Source: Patescibacteria group bacterium (GTDB lineage: Bacteria > Patescibacteriota > Minisyncoccia > Phycocordibacterales > UBA918). From it: 33,340 bases of DNA. A program made the translations under genes and the position numbers. Under the pieces are notes generated by a model that was not told the origin of the DNA, did not search any database, and was given only the letters and a program-made list of their open reading frames with translations. Numbering within the stretch: the first letter of the stretch is position 1; every line of letters begins with the position of its first letter. This document shows positions 13,373 to 20,251 of the stretch, piece by piece. The stretch covers positions 1-33,340 of the forward strand of contig WFTF01000001.1 in assembly GCA_015485575.1 (NCBI GenBank). The letters run 5' to 3'.

Positions 13373-13410
13373 CTCTATACACTCAATGTATAAACATCCC
13401 CCCATAGTTA

Positions 13411-13422
13411 GATATATCGAAA
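13411..13422 (+). repeat. GATATATCGAAA site 1
   Basis: exact 12-mer shared with four other sites. Confidence 0.7.
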
Positions 13423-13492
13423 CATTTATTCAACCCCTACTCCTACAACCAATCTCCTTTCAGACGCACAAAACGAGATAACAAAATAGTGC

Positions 13493-13504
13493 GATATATC
13501 GAAA
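13493..13504 (+). repeat. GATATATCGAAA site 2
   Basis: exact; flanking aaatagtgc identical to site 4. Confidence 0.7.
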
Positions 13505-13534: not shown

Positions 13535-13577
13535 AATCAACAAACCTAGGTCATTGAATGACCTAGGTTTGTTGATT
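13535..13577. repeat. palindrome P2, 21-bp perfect arms
   Basis: aatcaacaaacctaggtcatt-g-aatgacctaggtttgttgatt. Confidence 0.85.
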
Positions 13578-13615: not shown

Positions 13616-13697
13616 ACGCTCCGCCTTTTGCCGTTGCCGGACAAGACGCAGGTCTTGTCCTAGAAACAAGACTAGACGTCTTGTTTCTGCAACGGCA
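13616..13697. repeat. 82-bp direct repeat copy A1 (two-arm hairpin element)
   Basis: Read as identical to 13798-13879; outer stem tgccgttgc/gcaacggca enclosing two hairpins. Confidence 0.9.
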
Positions 13698-13756
13698 CCC
13701 ACTAGTTTCTAAGTGACATTTCTTCTCCGAAGAAATGCACACTAAGAACTATCGGG

Positions 13757-13809
13757 CCCGGCTCGCGGTTCGCAGCCCTAGGAAAGGGCTGCTCACAACG
13801 CTCCGCCTT
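13757..13809. repeat. 53-bp core repeat, island I copy
   Basis: cccggctcgcggttcgcagccctaggaaagggctgctcacaacgctccgcctt; 51/53 identical to 19259-19311. Confidence 0.85.
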
Positions 13810-13879
13810 TTGCCGTTGCCGGACAAGACGCAGGTCTTGTCCTAGAAACAAGACTAGACGTCTTGTTTCTGCAACGGCA
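13798..13879. repeat. 82-bp direct repeat copy A2, overlapping the 3' end of rplE
   Basis: Read as identical to A1; contains the rplE TAG stop (13854-13856). Confidence 0.9.
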
Positions 13880-14426
13880 AACCAATATATCGTAATAGTG
13901 CCTCAGCTTCGGACGCAGTCTTTGCGGTAGTAACAATCGTTATCGCAAGACCAAACACATCTTTCAGTTCTTCATCTGCTGTCTCCGGGAACACAGTATG
14001 CTCTTTCACACCAATGGTAATATTCCCCATCTCATCAATAGCGGTTACTTTAATACCTCTGAAATCGCGCGTCTGTGGGAGTGCAATGTGTATGAGTTTA
14101 TCTAGAAACGTAAGCATACGTGCTCCGCGTAGTGTCACCTGATAGCCCACAATATCTCCCTCACGGAGCTTAAACTGAGCAATGGACTTCTTTGCCGGCT
14201 TTGGGGATGCCTTTTGTCCGGTAATGCGCGCCAAGCGATCCTGAATAAGTGCAATTTTTTGCCTGTCATCAATCTTACCGATACCGGTTGAGACAACCAC
14301 CTTTTCAATCTTCGGTGCCTGCATGGGATTGGTGTATGAAAACGTATCTTTCAACGCCTCATACGTCCCCGCAAGCTTGGTTTTCATATCTTGTGTCGCC
14401 ATGTTAGATTGCCTTACCTGAAGCAC
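13854..14426 (-). CDS. rplE: 50S ribosomal protein L5
   Basis: NPMQAPKIEKVVVSTGIGKI...KLREGDIVGYQVTLRGARMLTFLDKLIHIALPQTRDFRGI. Confidence 0.96.
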   Translation of the reverse strand: MLQVRQSNMATQDMKTKLAGTYEALKDTFSYTNPMQAPKIEKVVVSTGIGKIDDRQKIALIQDRLARITGQKASPKPAKKSIAQFKLREGDIVGYQVTLRGARMLTFLDKLIHIALPQTRDFRGIKVTAIDEMGNITIGVKEHTVFPETADEELKDVFGLAITIVTTAKTASEAEALLRYIGLPLQKQDV

Positions 14427-17505: not shown

Positions 17506-17822
17506 AGCCGCATAGTTTAATAATTATTCTGCCCCCGATGCAGCTCACACGTATGTGTGACCATCGGTTCGTGTAACGGTATGTTGTTTGAGATTGCCCT
17601 GCCAGGGGCGAATCACGAACAGAGCCAAAGTTTGAGCACAGTAACGGTTGAATGAAACTGCTTCGCATCGTCGTCTTTAAAAATAAGGCTGCATTTCCTT
17701 TTCTGCTCGTCACTGAATGTATATTCAGTTCCTCTCATTAAAAGAAATTCGCTCTTATTTTTAAAAACTTTTGATTGCGATCAAACTTCGCCCCTGTTCT
17801 TGAACGAGGTTAGAACGGGGCA

Positions 17823-17851: not shown

Positions 17852-17921
17852 CAGGTCACCCCTTGCGTTTTACTTTAAAAAGGGTACAACAAAATAAGAC
17901 CAGTAACCATAGGTGGTGGTC

Positions 17922-18137
17922 ATGGTAGACCCAAAGTACTTCTTTTCACAAGAAGAACGCGCAAAAATCATAGCTGAGTCACGTTTGCCAAATGGCGACT
18001 TCAGCTACCAGCGTTTTTTGGAGCTGTTGGAAGCGGCACGCACCGCAAAAATGGGAGGGACTGATGCAACAACTAATGCGCCTGCTGCGCGCACTCTTCA
18101 ACAAAACAGAGGAAGTGATGAACGGGGTGCAAAATGA
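17922..18137 (+). CDS. small hypothetical protein (MVDPKYFFSQEERAKIIAESRLPNGDFSYQRFLELLEAAR...)
   Basis: ATG 17922 preceded by aggtggtggt; divergent from the rpsS promoter; overlaps next ORF. Confidence 0.5.
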   Translation: MVDPKYFFSQEERAKIIAESRLPNGDFSYQRFLELLEAARTAKMGGTDATTNAPAARTLQQNRGSDERGAK

Positions 18138-18267
18138 CATCGGCACTCTGCCCCCGTCACACACCCCGCCGTCCAACGCCGACCGGGCAACCGACGAAGT
18201 CGCACGCCACGTTGCAGGCAAAGAAGCTATCGTTCGTGCCGCACAACTGGCAGGTACCGGCCACTGA
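18064..18267 (+). CDS. small hypothetical protein (MQQLMRLLRALFNKTEEVMNGVQNDIG...)
   Basis: ATG 18064 after gggaggg SD-like sequence; followed directly by an intrinsic terminator. Confidence 0.5.
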   Translation: MQQLMRLLRALFNKTEEVMNGVQNDIGTLPPSHTPPSNADRATDEVARHVAGKEAIVRAAQLAGTGH

Positions 18268-18272
18268 AACAT

Positions 18273-18303
18273 ACCGAGGGCGCAGCAGCATCCTCGGTTT
18301 TTT
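18273..18303 (+). terminator. intrinsic terminator
   Basis: accgagg-gcgcagcagcat-cctcggttttttcg. Confidence 0.75.
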
Positions 18304-18390
18304 CGTTTCTGTAATAAAGTGATTTTGTATACCACTGTTCTCCCACTTACAAATCTGATGGCTATTTGATATGGTACATATACCATCTGT

Positions 18391-18711
18391 ATGGCAAAAC
18401 CCCGCGGCAATGAACACACTACTCTGACCGAAACCGCACAAGAGGTGGTTCGGGTGCTTGCGCGTATGCCCGGGGTGAAAATGATTGCCCCGGGTGAAAT
18501 AAAAACAAACAGCAAAAAAGGGTCGGGAAACCGTTTTGTCACCGCTGTATATACCACCGCCGGCATGGAACTTTTGATCTCGGGACAAAGTGTGCAAAAG
18601 GTGGCGGTACACACCACCACAGACCCGCACGAGCTGTTTTTACAGCTGCAGACACACAAAAAACTAAAGCATTTCCATTTCAAAACCCGTGAGCGCAAAC
18701 CGGGGATATAA
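18391..18711 (+). CDS. hypothetical basic protein, 106 aa
   Basis: Coherent ORF MAKPRGNEHTTLTETAQEVVRVLARMPGVKMIAPGEIKTNSKKGSGNRFVTAVYTTAG...; promoter-like AT-rich upstream. Confidence 0.6.
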   Translation: MAKPRGNEHTTLTETAQEVVRVLARMPGVKMIAPGEIKTNSKKGSGNRFVTAVYTTAGMELLISGQSVQKVAVHTTTDPHELFLQLQTHKKLKHFHFKTRERKPGI

Positions 18712-18787
18712 AAAGCACCACCGAGCAGTCTCATTTCTCGTCATCACTCTTGAAAAAATCTGCGCAGACAACACAGAACATTGTTGC

Positions 18788-18799
18788 GATATATCGAAA
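18788..18799 (+). repeat. GATATATCGAAA site 3
   Basis: exact 12-mer. Confidence 0.7.
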
Positions 18800-18912
18800 T
18801 ATGCATAAAAATAGCATTGTGTACCGTGGTGTGCATATACACAATGCAAGTGTATACACTGTCGCTACGCCAAGTGTGTAGGACTTTCTGCAACAGAACT
18901 GGTAAATAGTGC

Positions 18913-18924
18913 GATATATCGAAA
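18913..18924 (+). repeat. GATATATCGAAA site 4
   Basis: exact; aaatagtgcgatatatcgaaa shared with site 2. Confidence 0.7.
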
Positions 18925-18981
18925 TAAAAACCCCGCATCATCAACACACGGTAGAAGCAGTCTTCGTGTATACCGTATGTC

Positions 18982-18993
18982 GATATATCGAAA
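18982..18993 (+). repeat. GATATATCGAAA site 5
   Basis: exact 12-mer. Confidence 0.7.
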
Positions 18994-19072: not shown

Positions 19073-19103
19073 GCAACCTAGGTCATTCAATGACCTGGGT
19101 TGC
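19073..19103. repeat. palindrome P3 (same family as P1/P2)
   Basis: gcaacctaggtcatt-c-aatgacctgggttgc, one mismatch. Confidence 0.8.
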
Positions 19104-19153
19104 AAACATCCCGCCTCCTTCGTTTGTTATTCTTTCCCCCATCAGTCTGCCTG

Positions 19154-19262
19154 GGCAAAAGGTCGCCTGTGACGCAGGGCAGCTGCTGGTACCTTTTTCG
19201 TCACAGGTTACTAACTACAACTGTTCGCTCCGCTCCAGTTCTAGTAAGTACCTGCGACCCCG
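19154..19262. repeat. element B1, degenerate two-arm hairpin element
   Basis: First 25 bp (ggcaaaaggtcgcctgtgacgcagg) identical to 19312-19336; cctgtgac/gtcacagg stem with 26-nt loop. Confidence 0.6.
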
Positions 19263-19311
19263 GCTCGCGGTTCGCAGCCCCAGGGAAGGGCTGCTCACAA
19301 CGCTCCGCCTT
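19259..19311. repeat. 53-bp core repeat, island II copy
   Basis: 51/53 identical to 13757-13809. Confidence 0.85.
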
Positions 19312-19400
19312 GGCAAAAGGTCGCCTGTGACGCAGGTCACAGGCTAAAAGTAAAAAGGTTCACGCTGCCGCATGAACCTTTTTACTTTTACCTTTTGCCA
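19311..19400. repeat. element B2, 90-bp two-arm hairpin element overlapping the 3' end of rplB
   Basis: Outer stem tggcaaaaggt/accttttgcca; arm 1 gcctgtgac-gcag-gtcacaggc; arm 2 18-bp perfect stem; includes the rplB TAA. Confidence 0.85.
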
Positions 19401-20251
19401 CCCATCAGGGGGCCGGGTTTTCGCCTTGAAACGATAAACTTGTTTGAGTATTTCTTTGGTGAGCGGGTCTTCTGTCCCTTTCCGGTTGGGCGACCCTGCT
19501 TGGTGCGTGATCGCTTGTGACCGCGAGGAGCACGTCCTTCACCACCACCATGTGGGTGATCTACCGCGTTGCGTGCAGTACCACGGGTCTTTGGTCGCAA
19601 GCCCATGTGTCGTGCACGTCCCGCCTTACCGATACTGACCAGACGATGCTCTTCGTTGGAGACCGTTCCCACGGTCGCCCAGCAACTGGAAAGTACCTTT
19701 CGTATTTCCGTGGAAGGCATCTTGAGCGTTGTGTAGCCCGCGTCATGCGCAACCACCTCCGCGGCAATTCCCGCAGCGCGTGCAATACGTGCGCCACCGT
19801 TGGGTTTCATCTCCACCGCATACACAAAGGTTCCCACGGGAATCTTCGCAAGCGGCAGACGATTACCTTTGCGTGGCTTTGCTGTTTCCGACACGATAAA
19901 CGTGTCACCTTCTTTCATCTCCTGTGGCACCAAAATGTATCGGCGCGCACCATCGGCATAGAGCACCAACGCGATAAAGCCGGAGCGATACGGGTCGTAC
20001 TCTATGGTTTCAATCTTTGCGGGTATATCTTTCTTGTCAAACTTGAAGTCTATATCGCGATACTTTCGCTTATTTCCCGCACCTCGGTACCAGTTGGTAA
20101 TGCGCCCTGCGCTGTTGCGTCCACCGGTTGCCTTCTTACCTTTGGTCAGTGCTTTATGTGGCTTGCTCTGTGTTGAGGTAAGGTATTTCTTATACTCAAT
20201 AACAGACGCATCACGTCGCCCCGGTGAAGTTGGATTATATTTCTTTACCAT
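19388..20251 (-). CDS. rplB: 50S ribosomal protein L2
   Basis: KYNPTSPGRRDASV...GRITNWYRGAGNKRKYRDIDFKF...HPHGGGEGRAPRGHKRSRTKQGRPTGKGQKTRSPKKYSNKFIVSRRK. Confidence 0.97.
   Translation of the reverse strand: MVKKYNPTSPGRRDASVIEYKKYLTSTQSKPHKALTKGKKATGGRNSAGRITNWYRGAGNKRKYRDIDFKFDKKDIPAKIETIEYDPYRSGFIALVLYADGARRYILVPQEMKEGDTFIVSETAKPRKGNRLPLAKIPVGTFVYAVEMKPNGGARIARAAGIAAEVVAHDAGYTTLKMPSTEIRKVLSSCWATVGTVSNEEHRLVSIGKAGRARHMGLRPKTRGTARNAVDHPHGGGEGRAPRGHKRSRTKQGRPTGKGQKTRSPKKYSNKFIVSRRKPGPLMGGKR

Follow-up and report, generated by a model that had tools for sequence, protein, structure and literature searches.

A structured repeat family at gene 3' ends in Patescibacteria, with a target-matched segment in each copy

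The 3' end of the ribosomal protein gene rplB, in a 33,340-nucleotide stretch of a Patescibacteria group genome (contig WFTF01000001.1 of assembly GCA_015485575.1; hereafter the window), carries an elaborate inverted-repeat structure that we call B2. The rplE gene ends in a counterpart, A2. B2 and A2 each form the left end of a different member of a single repeat family, and the members share a core. The loci that we read have the same layout: the end of a gene (X), one or more hairpins, a segment (X') complementary to that gene end, a conserved core that begins with GGCGGAGCG, and the gene end once more (X2). We read B2 as probably the left end of a small, non-autonomous mobile element inserted at the rplB 3' end. 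The observations behind this account are the common core, its covariation, the placement of copies at gene ends, an X' particular to each copy, empty rplB sites in relatives, and the retention of X:X' pairing over the match to X2.

Common structure at the rplB and rplE ends

The rplB gene occupies 19388-20251 on the minus strand and is assigned to L2 by Pfam. Read as RNA on that strand (the rplB sense strand), positions 19311-19400 fold into a single three-way junction of outer stem, arm 2 and arm 1, with a minimum free energy of -59.5 kcal/mol against a mean of -22 (standard deviation 3.2) for 200 dinucleotide shuffles (z = -11.8). As DNA, each strand folds, with z of -10.7 and -12.5. A preliminary description of this DNA had proposed an 11-bp outer stem and two hairpins here, and both the sequence and the sense-strand fold agree with it. 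The 18-bp arm 2 with a 10-nt loop that it gave is correct for the plus strand; the sense-strand RNA has 20 bp (one G-U) and a 4-nt loop. The stop codon TAA (19388-19390) does sit at the base of arm 2, at the junction with the outer stem, whose last base is the first base of the stop. The outer stem itself, described as encoding GGKR, reads GGC AAA AGG (GKR) plus the T of the stop. The parts of the two copies in the window are as follows.

19390..19400, minus strand: X, the 5' arm of the outer stem; last rplB codons GGC AAA AGG and first stop base
19346..19389, minus strand: arm 2, an A-tract/U-tract hairpin in the form of an intrinsic terminator, holding the rest of the rplB stop
19323..19344, minus strand: arm 1, a 9-bp hairpin with loop CTGC in the sense-strand fold
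19311..19321, minus strand: X', the 3' arm of the outer stem and target-matched segment, complementary to the rplB 3' end
19201..19309, minus strand: conserved core of the B2 member, 109 nt (covariance model R1, 118 bits, E 9.9e-24)
19262-19309, minus strand: hairpin P1/P2 of the B2 core
19201-19261, minus strand: hairpin P3/P4 of the B2 core
19188..19200, minus strand: X2, a direct repeat of the end of rplB (CGAAAAAGGTACC) that has decayed; it flanks the core
19146..19187, minus strand: B1, a rearranged second copy of arm 1 and X' (direct repeat D10; weak fold, z -2.2)
13809..13881, minus strand: left domain of A2 at the rplE 3' end, from the fold
13871-13881, 13844-13870, 13821-13842 and 13809-13819, minus strand: X, arm 2, arm 1 and X' of A2, respectively
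13699..13807, minus strand: conserved core P1-P4 of A2, 109 nt (R1, 100.6 bits, E 8.3e-20)
13616..13697, minus strand: A1, an exact tandem duplicate of the A2 left domain plus the first core bases (direct repeat D1, 82 nt, 100% identical)

The layout of B2 recurs in A2 (z -7.2), as the preliminary description had it, with the rplE stop TAG inside the loop of arm 2. B2 had nonetheless been called unrelated to A1 and A2. We find otherwise, because B2 and A2 both adjoin a segment of the common structured core: direct repeat D3 (13743-13809 and 19245-19311) is 88% identical over 67 nt and lies, with respect to the genes, directly downstream of each two-arm domain. Nor is the two-arm domain alone the unit. 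In the rplB set arm 2 is terminator-like, the outer stem is a match to the 3' end of the host gene, and conservation is highest in the P1/P2 and P3/P4 hairpins, which lie beyond 19311-19400.

A covariance-model search, of the kind the preliminary description had proposed, returned hundreds of further copies and very strong covariation. Across the repeat family the core measures 90-115 nt in two hairpins, and the whole repeat about 200 bases. Without fitting to a model, a MAFFT alignment of 15 cores has 94.7% of its cells paired, and 24 of 30 pairs show changes on both sides; the covariation score is 0.578, compared with 0.200 after shuffling and at most 0.12 for slid structures. For 95 distinct copies, in an alignment fitted to the model, the score is 0.536 versus 0.158. 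Non-Watson-Crick cells are one-sided, with 131 G-U against 30 A-C and 93 G-A against 13 C-T. Such strong one-sidedness indicates that the sense strand is the functional single strand, as RNA or single-stranded DNA (ssDNA), and the covariation shows the core to be a conserved structure. A permissive Rfam search of the window region (E<=1) returned nothing except chance microRNA hairpins, and at the gathering threshold the core was unmatched in eight further loci. The expected position of the core is occupied by another, different folded block, AGGTTGCCTGC...AAAATAG-CGACAACCT, at L020, at L005 and in the first unit of L081; this block is perhaps a sister family.

Distribution and the target-matched segment

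With the rplE copy as query, a whole-genome search found related blocks in 22 of 99 genomes, the genome of the window included. Model R1 detects 10 copies in that genome at E<1e-3, and finds copies in 45 of the 49 genomes of the host's taxonomic family (27 at most in one genome), in 118 of 297 genomes of the order (E<=1e-6) and in 25 of 387 genomes of a class-wide sample. The exact core pattern occurs in records named as Nomurabacteria, Kaiserbacteria and other Parcubacteria or Patescibacteria metagenome-assembled genomes. Three exact core patterns had no match among IMG/VR viral contigs, although these patterns are strict and distant viral copies could escape them.

Copies are placed at the 3' ends of their host genes. 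Gene-end counts are based on 192 distinct copies that we read: at least 85 lie at tRNA genes, 14 at ftsZ, eight each at rplB and rpsI, and four each at rplE and rplL. Among the rest are clpP and tmRNA, the 3' end of the latter carrying the element in L095 and L247.

Every copy has, adjoining its core, an X' complementary to its own gene end, and often a direct repeat of the same gene end on the other side of the core. X' is 9-16 nt long and, in 126 of the 128 copies whose stem is strong (median length 12 nt), stops 0-2 nt short of the core; the gene-end repeat starts 1-2 nt beyond the core, at a point 2-4 nt into X. The X:X' score averages 17.2 for a copy's own X' and 11.1 when X' is swapped from another copy, and the own X' beats all 30 swaps in 91 of 185 copies (6 expected). 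Among 35 pairs of cores that are at least 86% identical, X' scores 17.8 against its own gene and 12.1 against the partner's gene. The extreme case is genome G010, which has two cores 98% identical with different targets, different X' and different arm 1. Between the rplB copies of genomes G000 and G015 both X and X' differ, and pairing is retained. The outer stem is specific to each copy.

That a shape recurs with altered sequence, as the preliminary description had suggested from the window copies, is evident across the family. A perfect arm-1-like hairpin of at least 8 bp lies just 5' of X' in 139 of 192 copies (72%), against 4 of 105 at a control position. The GAC-GCAG-GTC tip that the description singled out in arm 1 is, on the sense strand, the loop CTGC, present in 78 of these 139 hairpins.

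The two matches to the gene end have fared differently. We compared them in 64 copies with a strong X:X' stem and a recognisable X2, covering 669 positions. X and X2 mismatch at 125 positions and X and X' at 30, a difference whose size is inflated because the copies were picked for a good X:X' stem, and whose direction is unaffected. At the 125 positions where X and X2 differ, X' agrees with X 122 times and with X2 once. The outer repeat decays, and X still pairs with X'. RNA hairpins can arise and be maintained through template switching that corrects quasi-palindromes (PMC8794818). This process and selection for the hairpin would each explain the retention of X:X', and the data do not separate them.

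Mobility, mechanism and alternatives

The nearest relative of 153 of 182 cores belongs to a different genome and does not share a named site with the core; for 16 cores it is in the same genome, and for 13 it is at the same named site. Where a copy had no named gene, it was counted as 'other' here, and at least one such pair (clpP, L225 and L262) is really at the same site. Because the nearest core is usually at another gene in another species, with X' replaced, the sequences point to a mobile structured element with a target-matched segment and not to a fixed rplB riboswitch. The best-preserved copies have direct repeats of 19-30 nt, perfect or nearly so. At tRNA genes, repeats of about 19-22 nt restore the gene (for example L083, L099 and L105), and the distance from gene end to repeated gene end is only about 150-215 bp. 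At rplB, about 8 of 29 readable relatives have the element or a remnant, and in the others an ordinary terminator, long and symmetric, comes after the stop codon. The form of arm 2 is that of this terminator, which normally follows rplB. We dropped arm 2 from the mobile unit because the empty rplB sites carry a terminator of the same type and several copies (at clpP and ftsZ) are without arm 2.

On the sense strand, the proposed element would comprise three parts: a palindromic left domain (X, often an arm 2 terminator, a CTGC-loop arm 1, and X' of 9-16 nt), the core of two hairpins (90-115 nt), and X2. Because its end is duplicated, the host gene would stay intact. The core, as single-stranded RNA or ssDNA, may be the part recognised by a mobilising enzyme. 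We infer that X' arises from the target at insertion, the new target end being copied both directly and inverted at each move. The simplest route would be for the 3' end of a target strand to fold back on itself and prime synthesis. Fold-back priming would give the order T - T' - core - T for the target end and its inverted copy, as in L094, L041, L262, L095 and L247, and would account for X' running 2-4 nt past the repeat. The pairing of X with X' would then be held either by selection for the hairpin or by template switching that corrects the palindrome. It is possible, and we propose it tentatively, that the element rewrites its own targeting segment at each insertion, as a core plus a 9-16-nt inverted copy of the gene end, through either fold-back, self-primed copying or RNA- or ssDNA-guided integration with X' as a renewable guide.

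Our first guess for the mobilising enzyme, held at low confidence, is a HUH nickase (Y1 or RAYT-like). RAYT-like HUH genes occur in 26 of the 49 genomes and show a weak association with higher copy number (median 13.5 versus 6, p 0.025, with no correction for phylogeny or genome size). Within the genus, many genomes (G034, G025, G035 and others; L155-L174) encode a RAYT-like HUH protein, often in single copy. Five RAYT-like proteins that were tested fall below the NCBIfam cut-off for the REP-associated transposase. Reverse transcriptase is rejected as the mobiliser on its distribution, being present in 14 of 49 genomes, missing from G000 and most copy-rich genomes, and uncorrelated with copy number (p 0.54). 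IS110, in 6 of 49 genomes and absent from G000, is rejected in the same way. Tyrosine recombinase is found in 47 of 49 genomes and is uninformative as a candidate because it is nearly universal.

Several points weigh against the mobile-element account and its proposed enzyme. The fold-back step is based on few copies read, and the junctions can be placed in more than one way. The left terminator of several tRNA copies is unlike the terminator after X2, so that arm 2 is not simply a copied native terminator. Only two within-genome core pairs are more than 90% identical, which implies that recent activity is rare, and we saw no strain-level pair of occupied and empty sites. Neither an autonomous member nor a linked enzyme gene was found; when we looked up to 1.5 kb away for a distant upstream X that would mark a longer, autonomous copy, nothing convincing appeared, only tandem copies. 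For the HUH candidate, there was no core near 20 fetched RAYT-like loci (about 3 kb on each side where the contig allowed), no Y1 was detected in the copy-rich genomes G002 and G040, and the copy-number association is, as noted, uncorrected.

The main rival to copying of X' at insertion is that insertion is guided by RNA or ssDNA. X' would be an internal guide whose pairing with the unoccupied target bridges the insertion point, and the core a scaffold for a nuclease or recombinase; guides would diversify, and only matching insertions would be observed. The geometry suits this idea, in that X' ends within 0-2 nt of the core (126 of 128) and spans the start of the direct repeat, 2-4 nt of it lying upstream, the core folds on one strand into a compact scaffold, and no more than a base or two separates the end of the element from the repeated target. 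Near-identical cores with unrelated X' and arm 1 speak against it, since a guide would need renewal at every move, and IS110, a known RNA-guided recombinase family, is present in just 6 of 49 genomes. We consider guided insertion rather unlikely.

A dispersed 3'-untranslated-region or terminator structure that is not at present a mobile element is less probable still. Copies would then be old and retained because X:X' closes a large terminator-like domain that ends or protects the transcripts of strongly expressed genes, and would have spread by recombination or gene transfer. The hosts are highly expressed genes (tRNA, tmRNA, ribosomal proteins, ftsZ), X:X' is kept despite the decay of X2 (30 versus 125 mismatches in 669 positions), and the rplB copies of G000 and G015 still pair with different X and X', all of which would be expected of such a structure. 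Against this, the rplB loci of most relatives have an ordinary terminator instead of the element, nearest cores lie at other genes in other species, copies are flanked by direct repeats, and palindrome-correcting template switching can keep hairpins perfect without selection (PMC8794818).

We regard as very unlikely a Xer-type site-specific integrative element that uses the cell's single tyrosine recombinase and tRNA 3' ends as attachment sites. The 3' ends of tRNA and tmRNA genes are classic integration and attachment sites, the direct repeat restores the gene, and the recombinase is in 47 of 49 genomes. However, the targets (tRNA T-loop, tRNA acceptor end, ftsZ, rplB, clpP) share no common core site, copies of just ~150-215 bp leave no room for their own integrase gene, and an inverted target copy beside a folded core is unlike the layout of an attachment site. 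Least likely of all is a retroelement, in which a structured RNA would undergo reverse transcription at nicks in gene ends, as in class C group II introns or a short interspersed element (SINE): variable-length direct repeats, a 3' end that is fixed, a core structured on one strand and insertion beside terminators are compatible with it, but reverse transcriptase is absent from G000 and most copy-rich genomes, with copy-number p 0.54, and the core matches no Rfam family.

Surroundings of the copies, known systems and significance

Both insertion-bearing gaps of the window contain a 27-bp near-perfect palindrome, AACCTAGGTCATT.AATGACCTAGGTT, at 13543-13569 and 19075-19101; it is also found on contigs C6, C9, C11, C15, C35, C47, C61 and C78 of the same genome. 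A palindromic motif, GATATATCGAAA, is repeated at 13402-13504 and 18779-18993, in the same two gaps, and on other contigs, and it looks like an operator or another repeat. Plus-strand open reading frames at 17913-18711 run opposite to the ribosomal operon between rplB and rpsS, and 18391-18711 matches DUF2103. Just beyond rpsS, in the rplB-rpsS gap, a 46-nt inverted repeat (72%) spans 17673-17768. No tRNA genes were found in the window.

Several known systems resemble the repeat in part. REPs are 20-40 bp long with GTAG/CGTC tags (PMC3733652). Like REP/BIME sequences with their RAYT transposases, the repeat is multi-copy and intergenic and forms single-strand hairpins near gene 3' ends, and RAYT-like HUH genes are present in about half of the host genomes; unlike them, it combines a core of ~110 nt with a stem matched to the target and with repeated host-gene sequence in direct orientation, and no core lies by the RAYT-like genes checked. 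Class C group II introns are structured RNAs that insert next to terminators, a likeness in both respects, whereas here there is no Rfam intron-domain match, reverse transcriptase is absent in most copy-rich genomes and the host gene end is duplicated. IS200/IS605 elements have end hairpins and a short segment that pairs with the target junction; their guides are a few fixed bases, and they do not duplicate the target. The hairpins and the short pairing segment seen here recall these TnpA ends, but the segment here is 9-16 nt, differs in every copy, and accompanies a duplicated target. In ends of the IS200/IS605 type the Y1 transposase recognises imperfect, strand-specific hairpins as ssDNA; the repeat shows the sense-strand bias given above. 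Integron attC sites are folded single-strand sites that conserve shape and not sequence. This repeat likewise keeps its shape while sequence varies, yet its targets are gene ends; RYYYAAC/GTTRRRY core boxes and cassette open reading frames were not seen on reading the copies, for which no computed scan was made.

IS110 bridge RNAs and TIGR guide RNAs combine a structured scaffold with short target-matching segments (PMC12045711). The repeat shares this arrangement of a scaffold with a short target-matching segment. It differs from bridge RNA in that the match is one contiguous X' outside the core hairpins and not split guides, and IS110 occurs in 6 of 49 genomes. TIGR-Tas was dropped from consideration, as it consists of dual-spacer arrays and not single-copy elements. 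An integrative element at a tRNA site would have the gene-restoring direct repeat that we see at tRNA copies, and would have its own integrase gene, which the ~150-215 bp span does not hold. None of the families that we considered shows its defining features here.

In a partial coverage of the literature, with most subscription journals outside it, we found no paper on such a repeat, or on its movement, in Patescibacteria. In the widest sense a small non-autonomous repeat is a known kind, and what we rate as new in kind is the target-matched segment of each copy. To our knowledge, no known small mobile repeat carries a target-complementary segment that is different in copies whose cores are nearly identical. 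The mobilising enzyme, once found, could bring the repeat nearer to a known class.

The repeat is abundant (about 10 copies per genome in the taxonomic family), order-wide and located on essential genes, in a host group with tiny genomes in which few mobile elements have been described. The origin of X' is directly testable with the sequences listed. If X' is a guide or a self-templated copy, the family would represent a new way to choose an insertion site.
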